DNA of 25,527 bases from the NCBI GenBank assembly GCA_029265085.1, contig JAJUJY010000052.1:1-25527 (forward strand), written 5' to 3'. The translations under genes and the position numbers were made by a program. Positions 5,614-24,391 of this stretch are shown here, in pieces. The stretch's first letter is position 1. Every line of letters starts with the position of its first letter. Under the pieces are notes generated by a model that saw nothing but the letters and a program-made list of their open reading frames with translations, made no database searches and had not been told where the DNA came from. This DNA is from Chloroflexota bacterium (GTDB lineage Bacteria > Chloroflexota > Anaerolineae > Anaerolineales > Anaerolineaceae).

Positions 5614-7626
5614 TTACCGCGATAAAACTCGCAAGCCGCTGTCAAAATCAGCCACCAATACCAGGCTGCTGGTTAAAGCCAAACCGCGTGCGCGGCCAGG
5701 GGTATCTTTCACTGCCAACAGCAGCGGCTGCCCCGGATTGGAAATATCCAATTCCACAATCCCGGTAGTTTCATCTGCGACAAATGCTATGGAACCATCT
5801 AGTCCAATAAAACGAGCCAACCCAGGCGTATCATAAAAACCTGCTGAAGATGGGCTAGCCGGATTTGAAACGTCAATCACCCGCATACCGCTGCCCCCAT
5901 CAGCAACATAGGCCAATCCGCCATTCACTGCCACCATAAATGCTGTATGAGGGGTATCCAGTGAACCGACAATGACCGGACTGGCTGGGTTAGTCACCTG
6001 GACAATTTGTAAACCAGCATAATTGGCTGTTACATAAGCGTAATCCCCATCCACGGTGACCCAGGTTGCTTGATCCGGAAATGCTACAGATGAAACTTCG
6101 GCAGGAGCAGCCGGATTGGTCACATCAATCACCCGTAATCCACCGCTGCGGTCCGCCACAAAAGCAATATTATTTTGTACATCGACACCCCAGGCGAAAT
6201 CTGGTGTGTCAAATGAACCAACAACCAAAGGCGCTGCCGGGTTGCTGATATCGAGGATTAATAAACCGTTCCGCCCATCCGCAAGGTAGGCAAGGTTGCC
6301 AACAACATCCACTGCATAAGTCCGGCCGCTGGTATCAAACGAGCCTACTTCAACTGGCGCATAAGGATTCGTCACATTAATAATCCTGACACCCCGATCT
6401 ACATCCGCAACAAACGCATACTGCCCGTTATAAGCAACCGACCATGCAGACCCGGGCGTATCATAAAATGAAAGCTCATCCAAATGATTCGGTGTTCCTG
6501 GGTCGGTTGGTAATGGGGTTGGTGTAGCGGTTGGCGGCACAGGTGTAAATGTCGCCGTTGGTGGAACAACCGTCGGAGTGAATGTAGCAGTTGGAGGCAG
6601 CGGTGTCGGCGTAAAGGTCGCTGTGGGAGGGGGTAAAGTTGCCGTAGCAGTTGGAGGCAAGGGTGTCGGGGTTGCGGTGTTGCCAGGAGCCGGTGTATTG
6701 GTCGGAAGAATTGCAGTGGGTGTCGCTGTTAAGGTTGCTCCTTGGGAAGGAGTTGAGGTTGGCAAAACAGGGGTTGCAGTTGGGGTACCATTGAATGCAC
6801 CAGAAGCAACCCACAATGCTGTCCCGCCATTGGTTGGTACGCCGTTTCCGCCATCTTTTAATGTTCCGTTAAATGTATTGATACTGTCATCGGTTAAAAC
6901 TGTCCCCGATCCATTCGACATTTTATAGTAGGCAGCCAATCCAGGCTCATTTCCAAGCAATTCCACAAACAAAGATTGAGCAATTTCTGTTTGATTGAGA
7001 GCCGTTGAGTAAATTCTTACCTCGTCCAATTCACCCTGGAAAGTCCAGTTGCGTGTCGAGCTATTAATCACACCACCTAAATGCAGCACAGGCAGCGCAC
7101 CGGTGTTGGGCTGTTGGGTGGTACCGCTAGCAACACTGCCAACCTCCACACCATTTTTATAAGCACGCAAAATACCATTCTGGTGAACCATAGCAATATT
7201 TACCCATTCCCCAGATGTATATGGAACAGCCACCACATCAAACGGGCTTCCGGCACTGCCGTCATAGTTCCAGACCCAAAGCATGTCCTGGCCGTTCAAT
7301 ACCCCGCGAGAAACACCCCACCAGCGTGGGCGATCACCAAAAACGGCATCACACCAGGCTACTGAACCATAAGGACAGGTTTCGCCAGGACCGGTTGGGC
7401 GCACCCACATGCTGACTGTTTTGGTATTGACCCAATTTGCCCCCATCATGGTAGTTGCAGGAACAAGTTCTACAAAATCATTAACCCCATCAAACTGGAG
7501 TGCAAATCCAGCACCCTCTGCAAGAGAGATGCGGGATGGAATGAAAGTGGTAACGATTAATAAGATAAAAATCAGAACCGTAAAAAGAAAGGTTTTCTGC
7601 TGTTTTGGTTTGTTAAGACCCATCAT
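5614..7626 (-). CDS. Secreted LamG domain plus LVIVD-repeat propeller protein
   Basis: A 670-residue exported protein. A signal peptide with a hydrophobic core (about residues 13-30) is followed by a LamG/concanavalin-like domain (about 38-260; FALQFDGVNDFVEL, then WTFQGELDEVRIYSTALN), which typically binds carbohydrate or protein. A Thr/Pro linker follows (about 282-387), and then seven LVIVD repeats of 42 residues, each containing a form of AYVADG..GLRVIDVTNP. Seven such units fit one complete seven-bladed beta-propeller. Start: ATG 7626 is used because GGAGG lies 6 bases upstream; a GTG at 7641 overlaps that site. There is no membrane anchor at the C terminus, so it is probably released or bound to the surface. 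Its ligand is not apparent. It has its own terminator and a candidate promoter. Confidence 0.87.
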   Translation of the reverse strand: MMGLNKPKQQKTFLFTVLIFILLIVTTFIPSRISLAEGAGFALQFDGVNDFVELVPATTMMGANWVNTKTVSMWVRPTGPGETCPYGSVAWCDAVFGDRPRWWGVSRGVLNGQDMLWVWNYDGSAGSPFDVVAVPYTSGEWVNIAMVHQNGILRAYKNGVEVGSVASGTTQQPNTGALPVLHLGGVINSSTRNWTFQGELDEVRIYSTALNQTEIAQSLFVELLGNEPGLAAYYKMSNGSGTVLTDDSINTFNGTLKDGGNGVPTNGGTALWVASGAFNGTPTATPVLPTSTPSQGATLTATPTAILPTNTPAPGNTATPTPLPPTATATLPPPTATFTPTPLPPTATFTPTVVPPTATFTPVPPTATPTPLPTDPGTPNHLDELSFYDTPGSAWSVAYNGQYAFVADVDRGVRIINVTNPYAPVEVGSFDTSGRTYAVDVVGNLAYLADGRNGLLILDISNPAAPLVVGSFDTPDFAWGVDVQNNIAFVADRSGGLRVIDVTNPAAPAEVSSVAFPDQATWVTVDGDYAYVTANYAGLQIVQVTNPASPVIVGSLDTPHTAFMVAVNGGLAYVADGGSGMRVIDVSNPASPSSAGFYDTPGLARFIGLDGSIAFVADETTGIVELDISNPGQPLLLAVKDTPGRARGLALTSSLVLVADFDSGLRVLSR
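5617..6471 (-). repeat. Seven tandem 42-residue LVIVD repeats within the coding region
   Basis: Seven in-frame units begin at 6471 and recur every 126 bases; the last is short. Each starts with a form of xSFDTPG and contains ADxxxGLRVIDVTNPAxP. The fourth is the most divergent, with SSVAFPDQ at its beginning. Confidence 0.85.
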
Positions 7627-7722
7627 CCTGTTCCTCCACACTACACTGCTTTAATGGTCATCAGGTTGATGCCGATTTTTCTAAGGTAAATAAGCCCATT
7701 TAGGACAAAATGAGGCAAATAC

Positions 7723-9725: not shown

Positions 9726-10715
9726 ATGGATTTTAATTTAGGCCTGGAATTTAACGGCAGCACCAATCAAGGCTCAAACTACGATGTCGTCATTATTGGC
9801 GGCGGGCCAGCTGGTGCAACTGCGGCAATATATACCGCCCGGGCTGGATTGAAAACATTAATCATTGATAAAGGCTTGACGGCTGGTGCGTTGGGGATCA
9901 CCAGCAAAATTGCCAATTATCCTGGCATTCCAGGAGAGATTGGCGGAGCCGAATTACTAGAGCGGATGCGCGACCAGGCCAAGTCGTTTGGCACTGAATT
10001 TGTTGCCGACAAAGTGATTGGCGTTGACCTGGCCGGAGAAGAAAAAGCGGTATTTGCAAATAATGGCACATATACCGCTCGCGCGGTGATCATCTCCACT
10101 GGTTCGATGGGACGCGGCCAGCGTGTCAAAGGCGAGGATGAGTTATTGGGGCACGGCGTTTCTTATTGTGCCACCTGCGATGCAGCTTTTTTCCGTTCCC
10201 AGGATGTGGTGGTTGCGGGGAACAGCGATGAAGCCATTGAAGAAGCCTTGTTTTTAACCCGTTTTGTCAACCGGGTACATTTCCTTTCACCTACTCCTGA
10301 ACTCAAAGCACCGCAGCACCTGGTAAACGAACTGGAAGAAAACCCAAAGGTCAATATCTATCGCGGCGCTTCACTGCGTGAGATTATCGGAACAGACCGG
10401 GTAGAGCGTGTGCGCTTTGCCTTACGCGGGCAAGGAGAACAAGCCCTGGCTGTCACCGGTGCATTCATCTATTTGCAGGGAGGTAAACCTATCACTGATT
10501 TTCTGCAAGGCCAACTGGAGATCACCGAAAATGGCTGTCTGATCGTTGACCGCGAATTTCAAACCACTGTCCCAGGTGTTTTTGCGGTAGGCGATGTGCT
10601 CTGTAATCATGTAAAACAAGCTGTTGTTGCTGCTGCAGAAGGCGCAGTCGCCGGTATGTCGGTAGAAAAAGTATTACGCGGCCGGAAACAACTGGTCGTC
10701 GATTGGTCTAAATAA
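9726..10715 (+). CDS. trxB: Thioredoxin-reductase-like flavoprotein with atypical pyridine nucleotide site
   Basis: A cytosolic FAD disulfide reductase of 329 residues expected to reduce thioredoxin. A 20-residue lead precedes the FAD-binding GGGPAGATAAIY (about residues 24-35); the redox-active CATC lies near residue 149, and the second FAD motif PGVFAVGDV near 285. The NADPH domain is odd. Where typical TrxB has GGGNTAVEEA there is GNSDEAIEEA, and the HRRxxxR phosphate-binding stretch is replaced by SPTPELK. Similar losses are known in ferredoxin-dependent and other non-NADPH thioredoxin reductases, so the donor may not be NADPH. AGAGGAG sits 6 bases before ATG 9726. Thioredoxin follows 26 bases later, forming a two-gene unit. 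Family assignment is firm; the donor is inference. Confidence 0.9.
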   Translation: MDFNLGLEFNGSTNQGSNYDVVIIGGGPAGATAAIYTARAGLKTLIIDKGLTAGALGITSKIANYPGIPGEIGGAELLERMRDQAKSFGTEFVADKVIGVDLAGEEKAVFANNGTYTARAVIISTGSMGRGQRVKGEDELLGHGVSYCATCDAAFFRSQDVVVAGNSDEAIEEALFLTRFVNRVHFLSPTPELKAPQHLVNELEENPKVNIYRGASLREIIGTDRVERVRFALRGQGEQALAVTGAFIYLQGGKPITDFLQGQLEITENGCLIVDREFQTTVPGVFAVGDVLCNHVKQAVVAAAEGAVAGMSVEKVLRGRKQLVVDWSK

Positions 10716-13138: not shown

Positions 13139-14419
13139 TTGTTCCTCATGAAGAAGATCAAATTATTTATCCATTCCTTCTCACAACAATTAACCACCAT
13201 CTTTGGGGTGCTCTTTTTCACCGGCATGATGTCGGTTGGTTATTTTTATAATGTCACGTTTATTCAACTTGGATTAACCGACTTAATGAAGCACACTCTG
13301 GGCATCAATGAACAACTTGCCGCTGGAATGATGGCTGCCCTGGCGGTGCTGGCCTTGATAACCGCACTACTTTTTGGTGTCTGGCTGATGAAAACCAACC
13401 GCTCCGCAGATTTCATTTTTAAGCTGCGATCGGCTTTTGGCGTGGTGGTTGTTCAAACCATCCTGACCTTAACGATTATTTATATCCGGACTGAAGTAGC
13501 ACTTTATGGCTGGGTTGCCCTGGCCGCTATCACCCTGGGCATTGGGATGCCCGCCACCTTTAGCCTGACGGTTGACCTTGTTCCTCGCCGATGGCGGGGG
13601 ATGACGGCTGGCCTGATCACCGCAATCGCTTATTTTGCTTCCAATGCTTTTTCCTCGTCCACCTGGCAAATGGAGCATTTTCGCAATCTCAGCCTGATCG
13701 TGATGCTCCCAGGATGTGCCGTGCTGGCTTTAATAATTTTTGCAAAACTTCCCGTTCTGCAACGATTAGCCGCCCAACACCAGCGTCCAGAATTCTCACA
13801 CGGCCGGTTCGTCCAGGTCAGCCAGGACGGTAAGCCGCATATTCAACGCAGCCTGGCAGGAATATTGGTGCTGATGTTTGGTGTGTTTTTTATTGACAGC
13901 CTCGGTTTTTTGCGTTTATTGGAAACACCCCTGTATATGACCTTCGCCTGGCAATCCAATAACCAGAATATCCACCTGTTTATTGCGCTAACGCATGTTG
14001 CTGCCGCACTCATCGGTGGAATTCTCTACACCTACCTTTCTGAACGACATATCTTCGCCTGGATTTTTGGTTTATTTGCCCTGACTCACCTGTTTTACTG
14101 CCTGCATACCCGGGTTGGACCCGTTGATTACGCACCTCTGATCATGCCTATGCTGTATGCAATTGCGGTCAGCCTGTACACCGTGATTAACTTTGCCATC
14201 TGGGCAGATATCTCCACGCCGCAAAACATCAGTCTGAACACAGCCATCGGTGTTTCCCTCTCCGGATGGACCGCTACTTTTCTCAGTACTGCCCTGTCCA
14301 TGCAGTGGCGCGCCATTGGCGTCTCGCTGGAACGACATCTAAACATAGTGGATGCTTTGGCTGTGGCCTTTTTCCTGGGCATATTGCTGTTTTTATTCTT
14401 TTACAAAAGGAAAAAATAA
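13139..14419 (+). CDS. MFS-type permease
   Basis: A 426-residue integral membrane protein with about twelve hydrophobic segments, the layout of the major facilitator superfamily. The loop LVPRRWRGMTAGLITAIAYF resembles the conserved cytosolic loop region of the family, and the central hydrophilic loop (about residues 205-235) separates the two six-helix halves. TTG 13139 is used because of the well-placed AGGAGG. The substrate cannot be read from the sequence. The stop overlaps the ATG of the lipoprotein gene by one base, so the two are translationally coupled and may act together at the membrane. Confidence 0.75.
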   Translation: MFLMKKIKLFIHSFSQQLTTIFGVLFFTGMMSVGYFYNVTFIQLGLTDLMKHTLGINEQLAAGMMAALAVLALITALLFGVWLMKTNRSADFIFKLRSAFGVVVVQTILTLTIIYIRTEVALYGWVALAAITLGIGMPATFSLTVDLVPRRWRGMTAGLITAIAYFASNAFSSSTWQMEHFRNLSLIVMLPGCAVLALIIFAKLPVLQRLAAQHQRPEFSHGRFVQVSQDGKPHIQRSLAGILVLMFGVFFIDSLGFLRLLETPLYMTFAWQSNNQNIHLFIALTHVAAALIGGILYTYLSERHIFAWIFGLFALTHLFYCLHTRVGPVDYAPLIMPMLYAIAVSLYTVINFAIWADISTPQNISLNTAIGVSLSGWTATFLSTALSMQWRAIGVSLERHLNIVDALAVAFFLGILLFLFFYKRKK

Positions 14420-15354
14420 TGTCTGGCACAATTCGCACGCAAAAAAACCGCAGATTAAGCTCCCATTGGTTTCTTTGGATCATGCTGCTCCTTGGGGTAT
14501 TGCTTAGCGGCTGCACGGCAAGTGATTCTTATACATTTAAGATTATTGTGAATGGCTCGCATAAATTTGAGCCAGGAACAGGTTTTCCAGGAGATTTGAT
14601 CCTTCTGAAAGGTGATGTCCGATTGGAATCCGGAGCAAAACTAGCCGGTTCGATCCACCAGCTTGGCGGGAAATTATCCATCTCCGGCACAGTGACAGGT
14701 GACATTACCCTTCTGGATGGAGAAATCGCCCTGCTTCCCGGGGCATTTATTAGCGGAAATGTAAATATCTTAAATGGCAAAATCTCTGGGCTTGAAAACG
14801 CCAATGTTGTTGGCAAAATAGTCCAAAGCCAATCGAATGAACGCAAACCCACACCAAATCAAGCCGGCCGCTGGCTGACTCTGTTAATTGAATTTCTCAC
14901 GCTGCCAGCTTTCGCTGCTTTAATCGTCCGTTTTCTTCCAAAACCTATTGGGTTGATGGAACAGGCAGGTACACGCTATGCTTTGGTATCTGCCGCAATC
15001 GGTGTATTAGCCTGGGTTACCGCCCTGGCATTAATCGTGTTAATGGCATACACCCTGGTATTAATTCCCATCAGCTTAATCAGCTTTCCATTATTATTAC
15101 TGGTGACAACATATGGAGCCGTACCCTACGCATTGATCCTCGGGCGATGGGTAATGCACCGCCTGGGCTGGGAAAAAAGCCGCTCGTTCCAGGCTGCTTT
15201 CGGTATGATTTTGTTGATTCTATTGATCGAATCCTTCCGGTTAATTCCTGTGATTGGTTCATTAATTGGCTTATTGTTTTTAGCCACTTCCTTTGGGGCA
15301 GCCCTGCTAACAAAGATGGGATTTCAGCAGTTTGTATCAGAAAACATGAATTAA
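14419..15354 (+). CDS. Lipoprotein with bactofilin-like repeats and a polytopic membrane tail
   Basis: 311 residues, starting at the ATG that overlaps the preceding TAA (TAATG). The lipobox LLSGC puts the lipidated Cys at about residue 32. Residues about 45-135 contain hydrophobic/Gly repeats (GDLILLKGDVRLESGAKLAG, GDITLLDGEIALLPGAFISG) like the right-handed beta-helix of bactofilins and other polymer-forming proteins. From about 150 to 305 there are around four to five membrane helices with short loops. Bactofilins are normally cytosolic; here the repeats should lie outside the cell, next to the membrane. Other repeat proteins with the same rhythm are possible. The longer frame beginning at 14266 lies inside the MFS gene and is rejected. 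Confidence 0.72.
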   Translation: MSGTIRTQKNRRLSSHWFLWIMLLLGVLLSGCTASDSYTFKIIVNGSHKFEPGTGFPGDLILLKGDVRLESGAKLAGSIHQLGGKLSISGTVTGDITLLDGEIALLPGAFISGNVNILNGKISGLENANVVGKIVQSQSNERKPTPNQAGRWLTLLIEFLTLPAFAALIVRFLPKPIGLMEQAGTRYALVSAAIGVLAWVTALALIVLMAYTLVLIPISLISFPLLLLVTTYGAVPYALILGRWVMHRLGWEKSRSFQAAFGMILLILLIESFRLIPVIGSLIGLLFLATSFGAALLTKMGFQQFVSENMN

Positions 15355-15447: not shown

Positions 15448-15475
15448 ATATTGCGGATTGCATAGTGGAGGTAAA

Positions 15476-16708
15476 TTGAGAAAATCTGAGGGCACCCATC
15501 CTCCCTTATTTTCTCCATTAAGTATTTTCCTGGCAGTTATCGCTGTGATCATCATAGCTGCCTTTTTTGTGTTTAATGGCAGCAGCATGTTTAGTCCAGG
15601 CCCTTTATCCAGTCAAAACACACGCGGACTCAGCATCGCAGGATATACATCTCACGCGAATTTTGAAGATCAGTGCAATTTATGCCACCGGCCGCTTACT
15701 TCCAGCCAAAATGAAACCTGCCTGGAATGTCATCAAGATATCGGCGAACAAATTAAACGAACCAGCGGATTGCATGGGCGAATCAAAAATATTAGCAGCT
15801 GCCGTGAATGCCACTCCGATCATAAAGGCCGTAACTTTGACATGATTCAATCTGCACTAAATAATTTTGATCACAACCTGACCAGTTTTCCCCTTTCCGG
15901 AAAACACCTTTCGCTTACCTGCCAGGATTGCCACAAAACAGACTTCAAAATAACCCAAGCAGCCTGCATCAACTGTCATGAAGAACCCATGGTTCACGCA
16001 GGTCTTTTTCCACAAGACTGCAAACAATGCCATACAACCACAACCTGGAAGCCTGCCCTATGGTTGGAACAGGAATTCGATCATGCAAAAACTGATTTTA
16101 GTCTGATTCGCCACCTGCAAGACTTTCAAGGATTGCCGATCACCTGCCAATCTTGCCACCAATCTATTTCAGCAAACGTGGATACCAACCGCTGCAAAGA
16201 TTGCCACCTTACCCACCAATCAGCCGATTTTATTGATCAACATGTACAGACCTTTGGAATGGACTGCACTGGCTGTCATGACGGCACTGACCGAATGGAA
16301 AGCTTTGACCATCAGAAAGTATTCCCACTGGAAGGCAAGCATGCAGCGATCGAATGCCAGAATTGCCACATAAACCAACAGTTTCACGGGACTTCCAACC
16401 AGTGTTCTTCCTGCCACAGCGAACCAGAAATTCATGCTGGAAGTTTTGGGTTGCAATGCGCTGCCTGCCATGACGCACAAGCATGGCAGCCTGCATTTTT
16501 ACGCATTCACCCATTTCCGCTTGATCACGGTGCGCAAGCTGACAATGCCTGCACAGTTTGCCACACGCAAACCTATGCAACATACACCTGTGAAGCCTGC
16601 CACGACGTGGCAGAAAATGGATTTATAGAGGCACACAACCAGGCAAAGATACCGCAAGACCAGTTAAACAACTGTACCGCTTGCCACCTGGATGGGGCAA
16701 TACAATAG
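15476..16708 (+). CDS. Membrane-anchored 15-haem c-type cytochrome
   Basis: A 410-residue cytochrome with fifteen CxxCH haem-binding motifs, starting near residue 67 (CNLCH) and ending seven residues before the end (CTACH). A single membrane helix (about residues 16-36) anchors it with the haem part outside. Many free His residues near the motifs could act as second axial ligands. Local modules recur: FPLxGKH..CQxCH twice, and HAGxFxxxCxxCH twice. TTG 15476 is chosen because GGAGG lies 4 bases upstream; another TTG at 15458 would add 6 residues. It is the first of five co-directional genes and is followed after 19 bases by a second multihaem cytochrome. The expected role is electron transfer across the cell surface; the partner is unknown. 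Confidence 0.9.
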   Translation: MRKSEGTHPPLFSPLSIFLAVIAVIIIAAFFVFNGSSMFSPGPLSSQNTRGLSIAGYTSHANFEDQCNLCHRPLTSSQNETCLECHQDIGEQIKRTSGLHGRIKNISSCRECHSDHKGRNFDMIQSALNNFDHNLTSFPLSGKHLSLTCQDCHKTDFKITQAACINCHEEPMVHAGLFPQDCKQCHTTTTWKPALWLEQEFDHAKTDFSLIRHLQDFQGLPITCQSCHQSISANVDTNRCKDCHLTHQSADFIDQHVQTFGMDCTGCHDGTDRMESFDHQKVFPLEGKHAAIECQNCHINQQFHGTSNQCSSCHSEPEIHAGSFGLQCAACHDAQAWQPAFLRIHPFPLDHGAQADNACTVCHTQTYATYTCEACHDVAENGFIEAHNQAKIPQDQLNNCTACHLDGAIQ

Positions 16709-16727
16709 GAGAAAGGAGATCATCCTG

Positions 16728-18233
16728 ATGAAAAGACTGCTATTGATCCTCAGTTTAGCCGGACTTTTCTTACTAACTGGCACCAGCGCAGCAGTCGTAG
16801 GATTGGCTGAATTTGCTCCATTCCACCCTGGTCAGGCGCTTTTCCCTATCCAATCGATTGCAGAGCATGTGCTGTTGGGAATGAATTTTGACCCGGTAAA
16901 CCTGGCTGTACACGGTATGGATCTTTTAGAAAAAAGAATGAAAAATCTAGAAGAGGCACAAGGTCAATCAGTAGAAATTGAAAGCCTGCGCGAAGTACAG
17001 ATTGAAATTGACCACGTGCTAAATTTATTTCAAGCAGTCCCCCCGGAAAAAGAAGCAGCTTTACGCGAGCGGTTTATTAAGATATTAAATACACTGCAGC
17101 AATCATTACCCAACTACAAATATTCAGCCATTAATTTCCCGGAGGAATTTACAGCCTTTCGAGTAAAGATCGCTGAACTTAAGATGGCAGCGCAAGATAT
17201 AAACCAGCCTTTAGCCAACTTGATCCAAAAACAAAGTCCAGCATCTCAAAATTTATTGGCGCCAGGGAATTTACCTGCAGGTTCCTTAACGGCTACGCCA
17301 GCAATCATCAATCCTCGCGCGATACCGTTTTTTCCAGGGAGTGCTGGAGCTGTCCATGCTTTTTTCCCCCTCACCGGAAAGCACACCTCATTGGCCTGCC
17401 AAAGCTGTCACCCGCAAGGGATTTATGCAGGAACACCAAATCAATGCACCGACTGTCACCTATCTACAAGACCTGCCAATCACTTTGAAGGTCAATGCGC
17501 TTTGTGCCATACCACAAACGCCTGGCTGCCCGCCAGCTTTGACCATGCAGCTTTAAATGCTACTGACTGTTTGAATTGTCACAGCAAAAATCGTCCAGCA
17601 AATCATTTTCCTAGCCAATGCTCTGCCTGTCACAGCACTTCAGCCTGGTTACCGGCAAATTTCAACCATGCTGCCGCAGGCGCAACGGATTGTGTTAGCT
17701 GCCATAATGCAAACCGCCCAACTAATCATTTCGCGGGACAATGCTCTGCCTGCCACAGCACCTCAGCCTGGAGGCCGGCGTCGTTCAACCACGCCGCAGT
17801 TGGCGCAACCGACTGCGTTACCTGTCACAGCGCGAACCGCCCAGCCAACCACTTCTCCGGACAATGTTCTGCCTGTCACAACACCTCTGGTTGGAGACCC
17901 GCCACCTTTAACCATGCAGCGGTTGGCGCGACGGATTGTCTGAGCTGCCACACCGGTAATCGGCCAGCCAATCATTTTGACGGGCAATGCTCCAGCTGCC
18001 ACAGCACTTCTGGCTGGTTACCAGCCAACTTTAACCACAGCTTTCCAATAAATCACGGTGGAGCTGGCGGAGTCTGTTCCAAATGCCATCCTTCTGGCGG
18101 CAGCGGTTGGACCTGCTTCACCTGCCATAACGAGAATGAATTATCCCAAAAACATAATGAGGAAGGAATACCGGATTATGTTGGCCGCTGCATGGATTGT
18201 CATGCAAATGGCGAAGAAGGCGATGATGATTAA
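16728..18233 (+). CDS. Exported 14-haem c-type cytochrome with 41-residue repeats
   Basis: 501 residues from ATG 16728 (AGGAG 9 bases upstream). A signal peptide (about 1-22) is followed by a haem-free helical part (about 25-195) that opens with HPGQALFPIQSIAEHVLLG..FDP, reminiscent of DUF5667-type domains. Fourteen CxxCH motifs follow from about residue 219. Four full and one partial 41-residue repeats (NHFxGQCxxCHxTSxWxPA, FNHAAxxATDCxxCHxxNRP) each offer two CxxCH and two further His, as needed for two bis-His haems. The end (CSKCH, CFTCH, CMDCH) matches the end of the preceding cytochrome. With no anchor after the signal peptide it is probably outside the cell. Such repeats suit a linear haem chain, but a filament is only a possibility. 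Confidence 0.9.
   Translation: MKRLLLILSLAGLFLLTGTSAAVVGLAEFAPFHPGQALFPIQSIAEHVLLGMNFDPVNLAVHGMDLLEKRMKNLEEAQGQSVEIESLREVQIEIDHVLNLFQAVPPEKEAALRERFIKILNTLQQSLPNYKYSAINFPEEFTAFRVKIAELKMAAQDINQPLANLIQKQSPASQNLLAPGNLPAGSLTATPAIINPRAIPFFPGSAGAVHAFFPLTGKHTSLACQSCHPQGIYAGTPNQCTDCHLSTRPANHFEGQCALCHTTNAWLPASFDHAALNATDCLNCHSKNRPANHFPSQCSACHSTSAWLPANFNHAAAGATDCVSCHNANRPTNHFAGQCSACHSTSAWRPASFNHAAVGATDCVTCHSANRPANHFSGQCSACHNTSGWRPATFNHAAVGATDCLSCHTGNRPANHFDGQCSSCHSTSGWLPANFNHSFPINHGGAGGVCSKCHPSGGSGWTCFTCHNENELSQKHNEEGIPDYVGRCMDCHANGEEGDDD
17478..18038 (+). repeat. 123-bp in-frame tandem repeats of the 14-haem cytochrome
   Basis: Units start at 17478, 17601, 17724, 17847 and 17970, exactly 123 bases apart; the fifth is cut to 23 codons. 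The encoded start NHF and the middle FNHAA (FDHAA in the first) are nearly constant. Confidence 0.92.
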
Positions 18234-18265
18234 AAATCAAACCATAGAAAGAGCCTGAGATATTA

Positions 18266-18508
18266 ATGTTTGGATCACTATTTAAGAAAGCTGCAGAAAA
18301 AAGAAAGACTCTTGCCACTGGGGTGATTATTCCTGACCGCAGCCGCTGTGTTCAATGTGGAATTTGCATATTTAATTGCCCAATTGGCGTAGATGTTCGT
18401 TCCCATGCAATGAGAGGCCTGCCAATCCAGGAAAGTAAATGCCTGACCTGTGGTGAGTGTGTTCGCCGCTGCCCCAGAGGGACATTGCGGCTTGAACAAA
18501 AACCTTAA
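18266..18508 (+). CDS. 2x[4Fe-4S] ferredoxin-like protein
   Basis: An 80-residue small iron-sulfur protein. Two complete motifs are visible: CVQCGICIFNCP (Cys 28, 31, 34, 38) and CLTCGECVRRCP (Cys 59, 62, 65, 69), each able to hold a [4Fe-4S] cluster with the typical proline after the last Cys. The N terminus is basic with no export signal, so it acts in the cytosol. It lies between the multihaem cytochromes and the FAD oxidoreductase, 32 and 21 bases from them, and is a natural carrier between the flavoprotein and the membrane. The spacing between the two motifs (about 20 residues) is longer than in short clostridial ferredoxins. Confidence 0.88.
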   Translation: MFGSLFKKAAEKRKTLATGVIIPDRSRCVQCGICIFNCPIGVDVRSHAMRGLPIQESKCLTCGECVRRCPRGTLRLEQKP

Positions 18509-18529
18509 ACAGAAAATCAGGGTTTTTCT

Positions 18530-19876
18530 ATGTCTAACTATTGCATAATTGGCAGCGGAGCTGCCGGAATAGCAGCAGCAAATGCCATTCGCCAGGCTGA
18601 CCCACAAGGCAATATTCGGGTTCTTACAAATGATCCCAACCTTTATTATTCCCGACCAGGATTAGCCTATATACTCTCCGGCGAAGTTCCTCAAAACAAT
18701 ATTTTTCCATTTTCATCCGGGTATTTCCGCGATCAAAAAATCCAAATCGTCAACGCACCTGTAAAATCCATCAACTTAACAGAGCACTTGGTCTGGATGG
18801 ACAACCAAAAATTCATCTCGTACGATCGATTATTAATTGCCACAGGCGCGCGGGCGCGTTTACCCGACACGTCTGGAATTAATCTAACCGGTGTAGTTAA
18901 ACTCGATTCATTGGATGATGCCCAGCACATTTTGAAAAGTGCCCGTAAAACAAAAACTGCTGTCGTAGTTGGTGGTGGAATCACCGCTCTGGAACTGGCT
19001 GAGGGATTGGCCTCGAACGGAGTTCAGGTGCATTACTTTTTACGCGGAGACCGATACTGGACCAGCGTGCTGGATGAAGTTGAATCACGCATCGTAGAAA
19101 AACGTCTTCAACAAGACGGCATCCAAATCCATTATTTCACCAACCTGCTTCAGATATATGGGCATAAAGGCCGGGTGGCTGGTGTTCAAGTGGATGAAGG
19201 TGGCCGCAAATATGATTTGCCTTGCCAGATGGTCGCGGTAGCGATCGGAATTGAGCCGCGAATTGAACTGGCTGCCCAGTCCGGCTTAAATACCCAACGC
19301 GGCGTATTGGTCGATTCACAAATGCGCTCAAGCAGCCCAGATGTGTTTGCTGCCGGAGATGTAGCCCAAACATACGATCCACAGAGTGGAAAATATATCG
19401 TGGACAGCTTATGGGGACCGGCCGTCGAACAAGGCCGGACAGCCGGATTAAATATGGCAGGGGGATCTTATTCCTATACAAAAATTTTCCAGTTTAATGT
19501 CACCCGGCTTGCTGGCCTGGTCACAACAATTATTGGCCGTTTAGGACACGAAAATCAACCCGAAAAAATCGATAAAGATATTTCCGGAATAATGCGCGGG
19601 GATAGTGAAGTCTGGCGGCAACCAGCCAATGCGATTGCTGCCTATACCTATCAACATGAGAACCGGATCCGCATATGCCTGAACCATTCCACCATCACAG
19701 GGGCACTCATCATGGGCGACCAACGCATCTCTCACCCTGTTCAATATTTGATTCAGCACCAGGTTGATATCAGCCCGATCCGTGAAGAACTACTGACAAA
19801 AGAAAATGACCTGGCGGAAATAATTTTGGAATTTTGGAAAGCAAACATGGGGAAATATGCCGCGCAAATCGCATGA
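18530..19876 (+). CDS. FAD-dependent NAD(P) oxidoreductase
   Basis: A 448-residue soluble flavoprotein of the pyridine nucleotide-disulfide oxidoreductase class 2 fold, close in layout to rubredoxin reductase and to the FAD module of NirB. FAD site: IIGSGAAGIAAA (residues 6-17); ATGARARLP near 104-112; NAD(P) site VVVGGGITALELAEGLAS (about 145-162); second FAD motif FAAGDVA near 272-278. There is no redox CxxC, so it probably passes electrons to a separate carrier such as the adjacent ferredoxin. The last about 110 residues contain VTRLAGLVTTIIG and resemble the C-terminal part of these reductases. Its last 20 bases overlap the next gene. The donor, NADH or NADPH, is not decided. Confidence 0.87.
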   Translation: MSNYCIIGSGAAGIAAANAIRQADPQGNIRVLTNDPNLYYSRPGLAYILSGEVPQNNIFPFSSGYFRDQKIQIVNAPVKSINLTEHLVWMDNQKFISYDRLLIATGARARLPDTSGINLTGVVKLDSLDDAQHILKSARKTKTAVVVGGGITALELAEGLASNGVQVHYFLRGDRYWTSVLDEVESRIVEKRLQQDGIQIHYFTNLLQIYGHKGRVAGVQVDEGGRKYDLPCQMVAVAIGIEPRIELAAQSGLNTQRGVLVDSQMRSSSPDVFAAGDVAQTYDPQSGKYIVDSLWGPAVEQGRTAGLNMAGGSYSYTKIFQFNVTRLAGLVTTIIGRLGHENQPEKIDKDISGIMRGDSEVWRQPANAIAAYTYQHENRIRICLNHSTITGALIMGDQRISHPVQYLIQHQVDISPIREELLTKENDLAEIILEFWKANMGKYAAQIA

Positions 19877-20654
19877 ATTCGTCGTGGCACTGGCTGCCAT
19901 CATCGTTATTACCCTGGCTTATCTTTTTGTTCAAACCATTTCCGGGGGAACACCTACCGCCAGCAGTTTCTTTGGACACAGCCTTGGCGTACTGGGATTT
20001 ATCTTAATGATGATGACCGAAACGTTGTACTCGATACGCAAGCGCAGCCGGCGCGCCCGCCTGGGAAAAATGTCCGACTGGTTGGAATTTCACATCTTTA
20101 CCGGACTGGTTGGGCCATATATGGTCTTATTGCACCCAGGCTGGCAATTTAAGGGCTTGGCTGGAGTGGTAAGTTTGCTTACCATAGTGATGGTGATCAG
20201 CGGTTTTATCGGTCGGTATATTTTCACTGCCATTCCACGCACTGCAGAAGGTGCCGAGATTGGGGTAACTGGATTGGTACAACAAGTCAGGCAGTTGGAG
20301 ATGGAATTAGCGAGTTTAAAAAACAACGAAGACACCCGCCCCATATCAAAGCAAACTGTTGGCAGTGGCAACAGCCTGTCTGTGCTCTCACGGTTTTGGT
20401 ATGACCTTCAGGCCGTTCTGGTTGAAATAAATATCCGCTTACGGCAATCAGGGCAAACCCGCCAAAAAGCGCTGCAATTAGCCCGATTGCGCCGGAGACT
20501 TAACCAATTACACCGGCAAATCAACAATCTGGCCGCAGCTCGCCGGTTGCTATCTTTATGGCATACCATCCATATTCCATTAGGGTTAACACTGTTCCTG
20601 ATTGCCTTTATTCATATTGGGGCTGCCATCTATTATGCGCTTTTGCTAAAATAA
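19857..20654 (+). CDS. Four-helix membrane protein with His residues, probable b-type cytochrome
   Basis: 265 residues. Membrane helices at about 8-28, 38-58, 78-127 (one or two segments) and 235-262, with a long basic, coiled-coil-like hydrophilic part between about 130 and 230. His residues in or next to helices (H41, H79, H93, H236/H239, H253) could ligate haem b, as in cytochrome b561 or ferric-reductase-like proteins; no named family is certain. The start overlaps the end of the oxidoreductase gene by 20 bases, pointing to coupled translation. As the only polytopic protein of the five-gene set, it is the best candidate for moving electrons from the cytosolic carriers to the outside cytochromes. 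Confidence 0.68.
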   Translation: MPRKSHEFVVALAAIIVITLAYLFVQTISGGTPTASSFFGHSLGVLGFILMMMTETLYSIRKRSRRARLGKMSDWLEFHIFTGLVGPYMVLLHPGWQFKGLAGVVSLLTIVMVISGFIGRYIFTAIPRTAEGAEIGVTGLVQQVRQLEMELASLKNNEDTRPISKQTVGSGNSLSVLSRFWYDLQAVLVEINIRLRQSGQTRQKALQLARLRRRLNQLHRQINNLAAARRLLSLWHTIHIPLGLTLFLIAFIHIGAAIYYALLLK

Positions 20655-21405: not shown

Positions 21406-22380
21406 TCAATCTATTTTAACTTGTGATCGCTTCCATCCTGACCTAACAATCGAAAACACTGAATATTTGGGTATCCCATCCAACCGGTATTCACCCCCTA
21501 AAAGGATTGCATCTGCGGCACGCAGTCCGCTTTGAATTGAATTTCCAATCCCTTCGCCCATGTCGCGCGTGGCCAGTCCCAAGGCATCCCCTGCCAGAAA
21601 CGCATTGCCCAATCGGATCTTTGGCAGTTCTTGACGCACATAATAGCTATGCGCAACCGGATGGTATTCGTATCCTCGGATTAACCCCAATTGCTCCAAC
21701 CGGCCTGTGAGAATATCCCAATGGCGTTTCAAGTGATCTCCATGCCGGTTCAACGTCTCAGCAGACCCGCCCACACCCACATTAATGATCTGGTTGGCTT
21801 TCGGCACAATCCAGGCGTAGCCCGGCAGGTTGTTATTAAAAAACCATAACCGGCAGTGTCCATCGGTTTCCGGGTAATAAAATTCATCCTCCTGAGCCAC
21901 GATTAACCGGCTTTTTTCTTTAGGGAAGGTAGGTTTAAACAATGTTCGATATACCGGGCAATACGTTCCACCCGCACCGACCAGGTACTTGCCAAAATAT
22001 TCACCATCAACCTCATAGCCGTCCTCGACTGGTTTAATTTCCTTAACCGTATGCTGGAGGATTGGCGCACCTGACCTTTTAACCAGCCAATCATCAAATT
22101 CAATCCGGCGAATGGCGTACTGCAATGCAGGCAGCCGGAATGAGAATCCTTTGATGGATATTAAAAATTCTTTAAAAGTCGTCCAACCGTACGGGTATTC
22201 TGAGATAACCAACTGCAGGCTGCGCACAACCTGCGGAGTTATCCACCCGGCGCAAGGTTTCAACCGTGGGAACTGCTTTTGATCCAGAATGAGGCAGTCC
22301 GCCTGGTTTTGACGCAAGCGCCAGGCGCAGGCTGCCCCAGCCGGTCCTCCACCTACAATCAACACCTCAACCCGTTTCAT
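21406..22380 (-). CDS. Geranylgeranyl-reductase-like FAD oxidoreductase
   Basis: A 324-residue flavoprotein whose family (GGR and relatives) reduces C=C bonds in isoprenoid or other lipid chains. FAD site: VLIVGGGPAGAACAWRL (residues 6-22). The family block PGYAWIVPK corresponds to the PxxYxWxFP substrate motif, and the second FAD motif is AGDALGLATRDMGEGI near 270-285. KPCAG stands where relatives have a conserved Cys-Gly segment. It is shorter than typical members (about 380-400) and stops about 45 residues after the GDALG motif, so the usual C-terminal part is missing. It starts 6 bases after the Cfa stop, so the two are made from one transcript and probably act on the same lipids. Confidence 0.82.
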   Translation of the reverse strand: MKRVEVLIVGGGPAGAACAWRLRQNQADCLILDQKQFPRLKPCAGWITPQVVRSLQLVISEYPYGWTTFKEFLISIKGFSFRLPALQYAIRRIEFDDWLVKRSGAPILQHTVKEIKPVEDGYEVDGEYFGKYLVGAGGTYCPVYRTLFKPTFPKEKSRLIVAQEDEFYYPETDGHCRLWFFNNNLPGYAWIVPKANQIINVGVGGSAETLNRHGDHLKRHWDILTGRLEQLGLIRGYEYHPVAHSYYVRQELPKIRLGNAFLAGDALGLATRDMGEGIGNSIQSGLRAADAILLGGEYRLDGIPKYSVFSIVRSGWKRSQVKID

Positions 22381-22386
22381 ATGCCC

Positions 22387-23508
22387 TTAGCTGATGCGGC
22401 AGTCCGGTTGCGGTGTGCCAGTGCGGGTAAACACAATCTGCCATAACTGCGAATGGCGTGCCCGGAAAGCCCCGGCATTACTCAACAAATAATAGCACCA
22501 CATCCGGTAAAACCGGTCGCCATATTTTGACTGCAATTCCGGCCAGGCTTTTTCAAAATTCGCATGCCAGGCCATCAAGGTCTTATCGTAATCCGGGCCA
22601 AAATTGTGCCAGTCTTCCATTACAAATTTATCTTCCATCACCGTGCCTAGCTGCGCGATGGATGGCAGCATTCCATTGGGAAAAATATATTTTTCGGACC
22701 AGGGATCTCCTGTGGTTGCGCTGATGTTACCGCCAATCGTATGAACAAACGCAACCCCTTCCTTTTTTAAGCAGCGATCTACCACATCCATATAAGTGTG
22801 GTAATTCTTATATCCCACATGCTCCATGATCCCAATGGAAATGACTGCGTCAAACTGGCCTTGCACTTCACGGTAATCCTGTAACCGCAATTCGACGGGC
22901 AGCCCCTGGCAAAGCTGCGTCCCTAAATCCGCCTGCTCTTTTGAAACCGTCACACCCAAAATGCGTGCCCCATATTGTTCCGCGGCAAATTTTGCAAAGC
23001 TGCCCCAGCCGCAGCCCAATTCCAGCACGGTCTTGCCTTCATGCAAACCGATTTTCTTGCATACCAGATCCAGCTTGGCCTCTTGGGCTTCATCTAACGT
23101 GGTTGCATTTTTCCAATACCCGCAGGTATAGCACAATCGCTTATCCAGCATGGCATGATACAAATCGTTTCCCAGGTCATAATGCCGCTCGCCCACCTCA
23201 TAAGCACGGTTGGATGACTGTAAATTGAACAACCTGGAGCGCATGAAATGCCACCAGATTTTCCAGTTTCCATTCACTTTTTGATCCAGTTTTGCCTGCA
23301 ATACGTGGTAAATAAACTGATCAATGGCCTGGCAATCCCACCAACGGAACATATAGGTTTCACCCAGACCAAGCTGGACTTCGCGAAGAACCCGCTCATA
23401 AAACCGGAAATCATGGACCTGAATATCCCACGGTCTGCTGCCATTTACTTCAACATCCGCCAACTCAAGCAAGTCGCGAATGATAAACTCGGGTTTTTGT
23501 GGTGCCAT
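22387..23508 (-). CDS. cfa: Cyclopropane-fatty-acyl-phospholipid synthase
   Basis: A 373-residue enzyme that transfers a methylene group from S-adenosylmethionine to double bonds of membrane phospholipid acyl chains. The SAM motif is VLELGCGWGSFAKFAAEQYG; family signatures include CYTCGYW, GIMEHVGYKNY, HTIGG, PNGMLPS and EDWHNFGPDYDKTLMAW, which keep the Cys, Glu, His and Tyr positions of the bicarbonate site of E. coli Cfa. Length is near that of E. coli Cfa (382). ATG 23508 is used because a perfect AGGAGG lies 6 bases upstream; the GTG at 23529 overlaps that site. The GGR-like gene follows after 6 bases. A close homologue in this family could also methylate rather than cyclopropanate. Confidence 0.92.
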   Translation of the reverse strand: MAPQKPEFIIRDLLELADVEVNGSRPWDIQVHDFRFYERVLREVQLGLGETYMFRWWDCQAIDQFIYHVLQAKLDQKVNGNWKIWWHFMRSRLFNLQSSNRAYEVGERHYDLGNDLYHAMLDKRLCYTCGYWKNATTLDEAQEAKLDLVCKKIGLHEGKTVLELGCGWGSFAKFAAEQYGARILGVTVSKEQADLGTQLCQGLPVELRLQDYREVQGQFDAVISIGIMEHVGYKNYHTYMDVVDRCLKKEGVAFVHTIGGNISATTGDPWSEKYIFPNGMLPSIAQLGTVMEDKFVMEDWHNFGPDYDKTLMAWHANFEKAWPELQSKYGDRFYRMWCYYLLSNAGAFRARHSQLWQIVFTRTGTPQPDCRIS

Positions 23509-23514
23509 ATCAAA

Positions 23515-23520
23515 CCTCCT
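23515..23520 (-). promoter_or_regulatory. Shine-Dalgarno AGGAGG of cfa
   Basis: CCTCCT on the plus strand; spacing of 6 bases to ATG 23508 decides the start. Confidence 0.8.
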
Positions 23521-23610
23521 TTGCTTCACAAACCCATCACAACCTGATCATGCGGTGATTGTGCATACCTGGCGCAGTGAAGTTTCGGCAAAGGACCCGT
23601 TGATGAAGGT

Positions 23611-23728: not shown

Positions 23729-24391
23729 TTATGCAAGTCCTAACGCAGGAACGAGGCCTTTGCCCCAGGCACGGATCGCGTCCCAATTACGCCAATCCCC
23801 TTCCGGCGCTTTCATTCCTTTTGAAATCAACCGGTAAAGTAAGGGCAGCTTCTTCATATTCAAAGCACCCGCAAATAAACCTGCTTCCACCGGCTGGACG
23901 ATTTGACGCACTGGGTCAAGATAAGCAGAAACTGTCTTTCGATTTTCCTCCGTGTCGTTCATTAATGTCGTACAGGTAAGAAAATATGCTGTGGGCTTTT
24001 GATTAAGTTCTGTCTGGAATTTTTCTACAAACTGAACTGCCTCTTTCATCCATTGTCCCATGTAGATCGCACTGCCGATCACCACTGCTTGATATTCACT
24101 GACATCTTGAACATCTTTTGCCAGACGAACATCTACCTTCACACCATCTGCACACAGCGTTTTTCCAATTTCTTCAGCCACACCGCTGGTTGCTCCAGCC
24201 CGGCTGGCATAGGCAACTAAAATCTTTTTCATAGCCACTTCCGATCCACAACTTGTTTCCAAATAATCCACTTTCGGCTGAATTAATCCGACCGCGGTAA
24301 TTCCAGAGCAGGCCAGGATGCTGCCACCAATCACGCCACCTGTGATTTTCAAAAATTTTCGACGGCTCATTTTTTTGGATTCGTTCATCAT
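23729..24391 (-). CDS. Flavodoxin-domain protein with Tat-type leader
   Basis: 220 residues. The N terminus has the twin-arginine motif SRRKFLKI (residues 9-16) and a Gly-rich hydrophobic stretch (GGVIGGSILACSGITAVGL), a Tat signal or anchor; ILAC could be a weak lipobox. From about residue 54 (MKKILVAYASRAGATSGVAE) it is a flavodoxin: the FMN phosphate loop ASRAGATSG, then VVIGSAIYMGQW, and the C-terminal PEGDWRNWDAIRAWGK seen in HemG-like flavodoxins. The protein would carry FMN outside the cytosol, which is unusual for flavodoxins. AGGA precedes the start by 6 bases. It is the last gene of a leftward cluster with a membrane protein and another flavodoxin. The partner is unknown. Confidence 0.82.
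   Translation of the reverse strand: MMNESKKMSRRKFLKITGGVIGGSILACSGITAVGLIQPKVDYLETSCGSEVAMKKILVAYASRAGATSGVAEEIGKTLCADGVKVDVRLAKDVQDVSEYQAVVIGSAIYMGQWMKEAVQFVEKFQTELNQKPTAYFLTCTTLMNDTEENRKTVSAYLDPVRQIVQPVEAGLFAGALNMKKLPLLYRLISKGMKAPEGDWRNWDAIRAWGKGLVPALGLA

Follow-up and report, generated by a model that had tools for sequence, protein, structure and literature searches.

By what route could electrons pass from the cytoplasm of a Chloroflexota cell to large multihaem cytochromes outside it? Known bacterial routes across the cytoplasmic membrane to cytochromes lead mostly via quinol, and for the large cytochromes of Chloroflexota and Planctomycetota this crossing is seemingly undescribed in the open-access literature. 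The question is raised by a locus in contig JAJUJY010000052.1 of an Anaerolineaceae bacterium (assembly GCA_029265085.1), of which the whole analysed stretch of 25,527 nucleotides (nt) is referred to as the window. Five neighbouring genes on the plus strand, tightly spaced between positions 15476 and 20654, encode two multihaem cytochromes (cyt1 and cyt2), a ferredoxin, a flavoprotein and a membrane protein, and by their sequences they appear to form one candidate NAD(P)H-to-surface-cytochrome relay. The module is a defined quinone-free candidate for the crossing, for which NADPH is the predicted donor and haem ligands and an exit are likewise predicted; it is open to test as a possible way in which such cells make electrical contact with their surroundings. 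Its features are as follows (aa, amino acids).

15476..16708, plus strand: cyt1, 15-haem c-type cytochrome, 410 aa (CxxCH count, Pfam)
16728..18233, plus strand: cyt2, 14-haem c-type cytochrome, 501 aa (CxxCH count, Pfam)
17588..18037, plus strand: tandem array inside cyt2, 123-bp units equal to 41-aa dihaem units, 3.7 copies (Tandem Repeats Finder)
18266..18508, plus strand: 8-Cys ferredoxin, two [4Fe-4S] clusters (Fer4, 7e-11)
18530..19876, plus strand: FAD/NAD(P) oxidoreductase (Pyr_redox_2, 2.7e-51)
19857..20654, plus strand: five-helix membrane protein, predicted dihaem cytochrome b (invariant His, weak PF01292 match, homologue model)

The intergenic gaps measure 19, 32 and 21 nt, and the open reading frames (ORFs) of the flavoprotein and membrane protein share a 20-nt overlap. 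An initial annotation of this DNA had described the same spacing, correct to the base by the ORF calls, and the parts it listed (15 and 14 CxxCH motifs, a ferredoxin with two [4Fe-4S] clusters, a flavoprotein and a His-bearing membrane protein) were all confirmed by motif counts and Pfam. Its remark that it knew of no described system with this exact gene set is in line with searches of the PMC open-access literature, in whose listings no description of the set was seen, with subscription journals and preprints outside the search. The start of cyt1 is a TTG at 15476, preceded by GGAGG at 15467-15471, and the longest ORF begins at 15458. On the downstream side the module is bordered by a convergent ORF (DinB_2) 12 nt away. 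Since a scan of the window for promoters and terminators returned roughly chance numbers (9 vs. 7.9 and 9 vs. 7.1, respectively), it is the spacing alone that suggests co-transcription. The ORF directly upstream of the module (14266-15354, plus strand) has a bactofilin-like domain, below cut-off, and hydrophobic segments; in two related loci (L001 and L002) the module is preceded by ORFs of the opposite strand.

The arrangement recurs in relatives, and therefore is not due to chance. GTDB genomes were scanned with an alignment of the membrane protein, giving 229 relatives, of which the best 80 were kept, and completeness was counted only in the 39 of these loci having at least 4 kb on both sides. 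A flavoprotein and a multihaem cytochrome were found on the same strand within 6 kb at 38/39 loci, and all four kinds of part at 37/39; at only one locus (L031) was none of the partners of the membrane gene seen. Loss of gene order in relatives had been named in the initial annotation among the outcomes that would refute the relay proposal, and the proposal withstood this test. The commonest order was ferredoxin, flavoprotein, membrane protein, cytochrome (16/39 loci). The order of the window, with two cytochromes first, was present in 14 of the best 80 loci, some with further cytochromes downstream, a count that takes in one locus with 1.6 kb between cytochromes and ferredoxin (L044) and one with a split membrane gene (L017). 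Genes for the flavoprotein and membrane protein overlapped in 47 of 64 neighbouring pairs and were no more than 50 nt apart in 59, as judged by longest-ORF starts, a choice that makes overlaps look larger than they are. The loci are not all independent of each other, since L112 and L071 are one and the same place, L049 is nearly identical to L071, and L061 has sequence in common with L062.

The flavoprotein and membrane protein also occur together across genomes. Among 400 Chloroflexota genomes, a sample that includes the centre genome, itself chosen for having both proteins, 24 contained the pair, 1 contained each protein alone, and 374 contained neither (Fisher 3e-36, with related genomes treated as independent). 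The cut-offs of 1e-50 for the membrane protein and 1e-160 for the flavoprotein were set post hoc, after a gap had been seen; at looser settings, 29 genomes match the membrane protein and 141 the flavoprotein. One exceptional genome (G231) lacks a full-length flavoprotein match because the gene is split (L112), and the other (G196) has a flavoprotein match without a membrane match. The distances of the two proteins are correlated over 67 sets (r = 0.73, with 0/2000 permutations as high), a pattern that would also be expected to arise from common descent alone. A haem-copper oxidase family was found in 28/29 carriers and 306/371 non-carriers (p = 0.065, not significant), so that obligately anaerobic respiration is not implied. 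Two further Chloroflexota loci (L113 in G136 and L114 in G340) have a flavoprotein (612 aa) and a membrane protein but lack a multihaem cytochrome over 16 kb; L113 also has a ferredoxin, and none is labelled in L114. The core may therefore be the more general part.

At least two phyla have uncultured members with related gene sets. In the second of these phyla, the Planctomycetota, the core is sometimes a single protein. Related membrane domains were present in 32 of 246 sampled Planctomycetota genomes (centre genome included), and many of the matches lie in open frames of ∼740-830 aa. By its motifs, one such chain of 728 aa (L083) unites a ferredoxin of two clusters with a FAD/NAD(P) domain and the b domain. 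A database search with this chain gave at least 120 relatives that have both 4Fe-4S and Pyr_redox domains; most are 740-800 aa long, and they belong to Phycisphaera, other Planctomycetota and one Hydrogenedentes; those with names were NAD(P)-binding proteins. At 7 of 16 Planctomycetota loci, chains of 739-823 aa carry the b-domain match from residue 493-584 onward, and the other loci of the 16 have a separate membrane ORF. The one-chain fusions indicate that these three kinds of domain are able to work jointly.

The membrane protein has no Cys and 8 His, and no Pfam family matched it at E 0.01. Five His are invariant in 40/40 members of its family (H41, H79, H93, H239 and H253). Four of these residues form two pairs, each spaced by 14 (H79/H93 and H239/H253), and fall in helices 3 and 5 of a five-helix model of a compact homologue (pLDDT 90.5), so that, by sequence and model together, the membrane-spanning part has one His pair in each of two helices, placed suitably for holding two haems. 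Dihaem b proteins (CybB, b6, b561 and NOX) were among the top structural matches of the compact homologue. The loop between helices 2 and 3 is basic, with a mean of 5.75 Lys and Arg residues; for the loops of the opposite side the means are 0.7 and 0.8. Against PF01292, the window protein scored 13.5 bits (E = 0.063), below the cut-off of 30.1, and is not likely to be a member of the b561 family; in its own family, 30/40 members matched at E ≤ 1 (best 8.9e-7), the compact member reached 27.4 of the 30.1 bits, and 3/120 homologues among the matches listed carry a precomputed PF01292 label. These scores make a remote kinship of the membrane family with prokaryotic cytochrome b561 likely. PF01794 matched 5/40 members at E ≤ 1 (best 0.012), and its precomputed label is on 4/120 of the fused Planctomycetota-type relatives among the matches listed. 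The initial annotation had spoken of a b-type-like protein; the His pattern and the homologue fold now sharpen this to a predicted dihaem cytochrome b.

On the cytoplasmic side, the ferredoxin has 8 Cys and no hydrophobic segment, and all 8 Cys are kept in 68/68 aligned sequences, the window included. Both this alignment and that of the flavoprotein were made with one sequence per locus within length limits, giving 67 relatives plus the window in each. The flavoprotein has 3 Cys, two of them variable and one (C232) conserved. Its score against the NCBIfam equivalog for PadH, the epsilon subunit of phenylglyoxylate dehydrogenase, is 199.2 bits, far below the cut-off of 475, so it is not assigned to PadH, and its closest solved relative is 8c0z_E (7.7e-39), annotated as a potential aldehyde oxidoreductase subunit. 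In both of these best matches the flavoprotein family is paired with a 4Fe-4S partner, as in the module, but they are parts of soluble enzymes. In NADH enzymes the second Rossmann strand ends with Glu or Asp. The module flavoproteins have a non-acidic residue there (position 171) in 68/68 sequences (L, M, I, Q or V), in contrast to 8c0z_E, which has Glu; among five solved relatives aligned at this position, four have Glu and 1xhc has His followed by Arg. R172 is found in 68/68 sequences and A153, of the GxGxxA motif, in 67/68, and position 157 is mixed (V in 40, A in 21 and T in 7). The combination of a non-acidic residue, Arg and GxGxxA is the glutathione-reductase, NADPH type known from classical coenzyme-switch work. 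The pyridine-nucleotide site thus looks NADPH-type by its motif, and with the acidic residue of NADH enzymes in 0/68 sequences, NADPH is the likelier donor.

At the other end of the relay, the 15 CxxCH motifs of cyt1 and the 14 of cyt2 use all 30 and all 28 Cys of these proteins. Both belong to the C7/CIII families, with matches over cut-off (Cytochrome_C7 8e-16 and Cytochrom_CIII 4e-12 for cyt1; Cytochrom_CIII 4e-12 for cyt2), and each has one N-terminal hydrophobic segment. In cyt1 this segment spans residues 15-33, and suggests an N-terminal membrane anchor followed by a haem domain outside the cell; in cyt2 it spans residues 6-24 of a signal-like N-terminus, which is followed by a helical-looking domain without known family and then by the haem domain. 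The N-terminal domain of cyt2 (16728-17342) has no convincing Pfam family, its Maf1 match (0.00036) being below cut-off. Apart from those in CxxCH, there are 17 His from residue 60 on in cyt1, for 15 haems, and exactly 14 from residue 210 on in cyt2, for 14 haems. At least one spare His per haem was likewise counted in 94/95 multihaem neighbours (at least 8 CxxCH, not cut by a contig end). With enough spare His for every haem, the cytochromes resemble wires of bis-His haems, with no catalytic haem among them. A cytochrome c assembly family was present in 7/8 of the relatives' genomes tested.

The length of these wires varies. Relatives of cyt1 with 15 haems (43-55% identity) occur in L001, L002, L003, L007 and L018, and at the three closest loci cyt1 always has 15 haems, with cyt2 at 14, 20 or 16. 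Among the matches listed, the 14 best relatives of cyt2 have 11 to 42 haems; uncut proteins with at least 8 haems range from 9 to 42, and in the wider set the number reaches 47 in a single cytochrome. The repeat copies in cyt2 start at residues 252, 293, 334, 375 and 416, the last being divergent. The coding tandem array at 17588-18037, seen beside the varying haem number in relatives, points to possible wire growth by repeat expansion. If dihaem repeats lengthen the wire and leave the input module as it is, the variable haem number would be explained. Cytochromes with variable haem number were reported earlier from Anaerolineales bioanode genomes (PMC7399161).

Taken together, we consider it fairly probable, from sequences and a homologue model, that the module is one quinone-independent NAD(P)H:multihaem-cytochrome oxidoreductase with an external wire, exporting electrons. 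The cytoplasmic flavoprotein would accept a hydride from NADPH or, less probably, from NADH, and give single electrons to the 2x[4Fe-4S] ferredoxin, which would feed the inner haem (H79/H239) of the five-helix cytochrome b. Electrons would then hop to the outer haem (H93/H253), and from there to the membrane-anchored 15-haem cyt1 and the exported, repeat-built 14-haem cyt2, which would carry them to the cell surface, with no need for quinone. Of the full path from NAD(P)H to the outside drawn in the initial annotation, it can now be added that the parts belong together, as the fusions and co-occurrence indicate, and that the nucleotide site looks NADPH-type; its direction, its acceptor and the position of the ferredoxin we infer. 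Since no protons would accompany the exported electrons, the step should run down the membrane potential, and this lowering would make reductant disposal, surface chemistry or partner feeding likelier roles than direct energy conservation.

A candidate for the onward path beyond an outer membrane was found in the Planctomycetota. A protein family of ∼550 aa, which we call porin-like, is encoded at 16/21 Planctomycetota loci and at 0/91 other loci. The 16 loci with this protein (L089-L104) were fetched around more divergent copies, and 9 of them built the search model, leaving 7 as new; searching by hand found the ORF in 12 of the 16 loci and the profile search in all 16. The 91 other loci are from Chloroflexota except for one from Actinomycetota, one of them (L112) repeats another (L071), and 81 have a cytochrome with at least 8 haems. 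Each porin-like gene lies on the strand of the cytochromes, and either overlaps one by ORF call or is within 262 nt of one. The proteins end in F or W in 15/16 cases, and those with plausible starts have a signal-like N-terminus as judged by eye. The family had no clear Pfam match, searches of the PDB and of proteins gave no support for a barrel, and a strand index for a barrel failed its own control. The 5 remaining Planctomycetota loci, of which three are on contigs shorter than 9 kb, lack the family, and one of the 16 loci that have it belongs to the named species Engelhardtia mirabilis. From these features, a porin-like outer-membrane protein would be the natural reading of the Planctomycetota family. 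In diderm Planctomycetota, a related core may then continue via this protein, which follows two multihaem cytochromes or stands between them, and the partner lends some support to an outward route.

The Chloroflexota envelope is monoderm, and the lack of a porin-like relative in the Chloroflexota loci fits this; the search of the 91 other loci was made with this family and not with known porin families. That the organism of the window has no outer membrane would follow from the taxonomy of its relatives, not from the contig. A similar remark is made in an earlier study of bioanode Anaerolineales (PMC7399161). A broader proposal covering both phyla, which we hold as possible and somewhat short of probable, is that these modules are cross-phylum quinone-independent exporters: an NADPH-driven analogue of NOX, put together from unrelated flavin and Fe-S modules and connected to interchangeable wires of 9-47 haems, which would end at the surface in Chloroflexota and pass through an outer-membrane conduit in Planctomycetota.

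Other readings of the same parts were weighed against electron export. The same complex might work in reverse, with electrons from outside (minerals, shuttles or partner cells) reducing cytoplasmic NADP+ for biosynthesis, given a low-potential donor. All of the carriers are reversible in principle, the NADPH-type motif suits a biosynthetic pool, and in 8c0z the FAD subunit presumably passes electrons to NAD+. However, reduction of NADP+ is uphill for most extracellular donors, and the cytochromes themselves give no sign of direction, so we regard reversal as unlikely. A chloroflexote isolate does produce both anodic and cathodic currents (PMC5808234); its largest cytochrome has 7 haems, so it may lack the module.

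It is less likely still that the cytochromes form a terminal reductase acting on a specific soluble acceptor at the surface, such as an oxyanion, peroxide or superoxide. Electron export of the MsrQ or NOX type supports local chemistry and would be the model for such a role. The C-terminus of cyt1 has a weak likeness to ExtN/ExtO of a selenite/tellurite operon (25 bits, cut-off 200), the cytochromes score 19 and 27 bits against DmsE-type decahaems (cut-off 192), and the haem-copper oxidase of 28/29 carriers, at its non-significant p = 0.065, fits an oxygen-exposed life. Yet no haem need lack a distal His (14 for 14 in cyt2, 17 for 15 in cyt1, and enough in 94/95 relatives), haem numbers of 9 to 42, and up to 47, would be unusual for an enzyme, and no conserved catalytic subunit was seen in the gene strings, where other genes are unannotated. 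Finally, the membrane protein could exchange electrons with menaquinol as a quinone-linked cytochrome b, for which the ferredoxin and flavoprotein would be an alternative NAD(P)H entry. Some b-type proteins in the structural list use quinone, and two further invariant residues, H41 and W235, could contribute to the lining of a site, but in some Planctomycetota the ferredoxin, flavin and b domains are one chain, which argues that the soluble path is the constant one; we consider this reading very improbable.

Read as a quinone-independent exporter, the module has partial counterparts among known systems. In NOX, SpNOX and FRE proteins, an FNR-type FAD/NADPH domain is fused to the membrane domain, whereas here the flavoprotein is a separate Pyr_redox_2 gene, a 2x[4Fe-4S] ferredoxin is added, the membrane domain has five helices in the model, and the output is a multihaem cytochrome c rather than O2 or an Fe chelate. 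The inner-membrane proteins CbcL and ImcH of Geobacter take electrons from menaquinol, in contrast to the predicted input from NAD(P)H via FAD and ferredoxin. Listeria-type FLEET is an NADH-driven electron export in a monoderm cell that uses quinone and flavins and no multihaem cytochrome; export driven by a pyridine nucleotide and a monoderm envelope would be shared, whereas the route proposed here has multihaem cytochromes and is quinone-free.

Like the Mtr/Pcc porin-cytochrome conduits, the module has multihaem cytochromes to carry electrons outside, and the likeness is extended in the Planctomycetota, where the divergent module pairs cytochromes with the porin-like protein; outside this phylum, no such pairing was found in the search with this family (0/91 loci). 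Large multihaem proteins of variable haem number, and no porin-cytochrome genes, are reported for bioanode Anaerolineales (PMC7399161). The Geobacter ext cluster (extHIJKLMNOPQS) likewise groups multihaem cytochromes with an Fe-S protein and a cytochrome b. In its description, ExtO is named as the Rieske protein and ExtP as a cytochrome b of bc type, and a porin and no FAD/NAD(P) protein are listed (PMC5877670). By its C-terminal score (25 vs. 200 bits for ExtN/ExtO), cyt1 is no Ext equivalog.

Several other genes of the window encode redox or lipid proteins. At 9726-10715 (plus strand) there is a thioredoxin-reductase-like flavoprotein, whose score of 318.8 bits is below the cut-off of 343.45, and at 23729-24391 (minus strand) a flavodoxin-domain protein with a weak Tat signal match, for which the nearest NCBIfam model is menaquinone-dependent protoporphyrinogen dehydrogenase (57.7 of 142 bits). 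Lipid modification genes lie near the module at 21406-23529 (minus strand), where a geranylgeranyl-reductase-family protein, below cut-off, adjoins a cyclopropane fatty acyl phospholipid synthase, over cut-off. An LVIVD-repeat protein with a Laminin_G_3 domain is encoded at 5614-7641 (minus strand).

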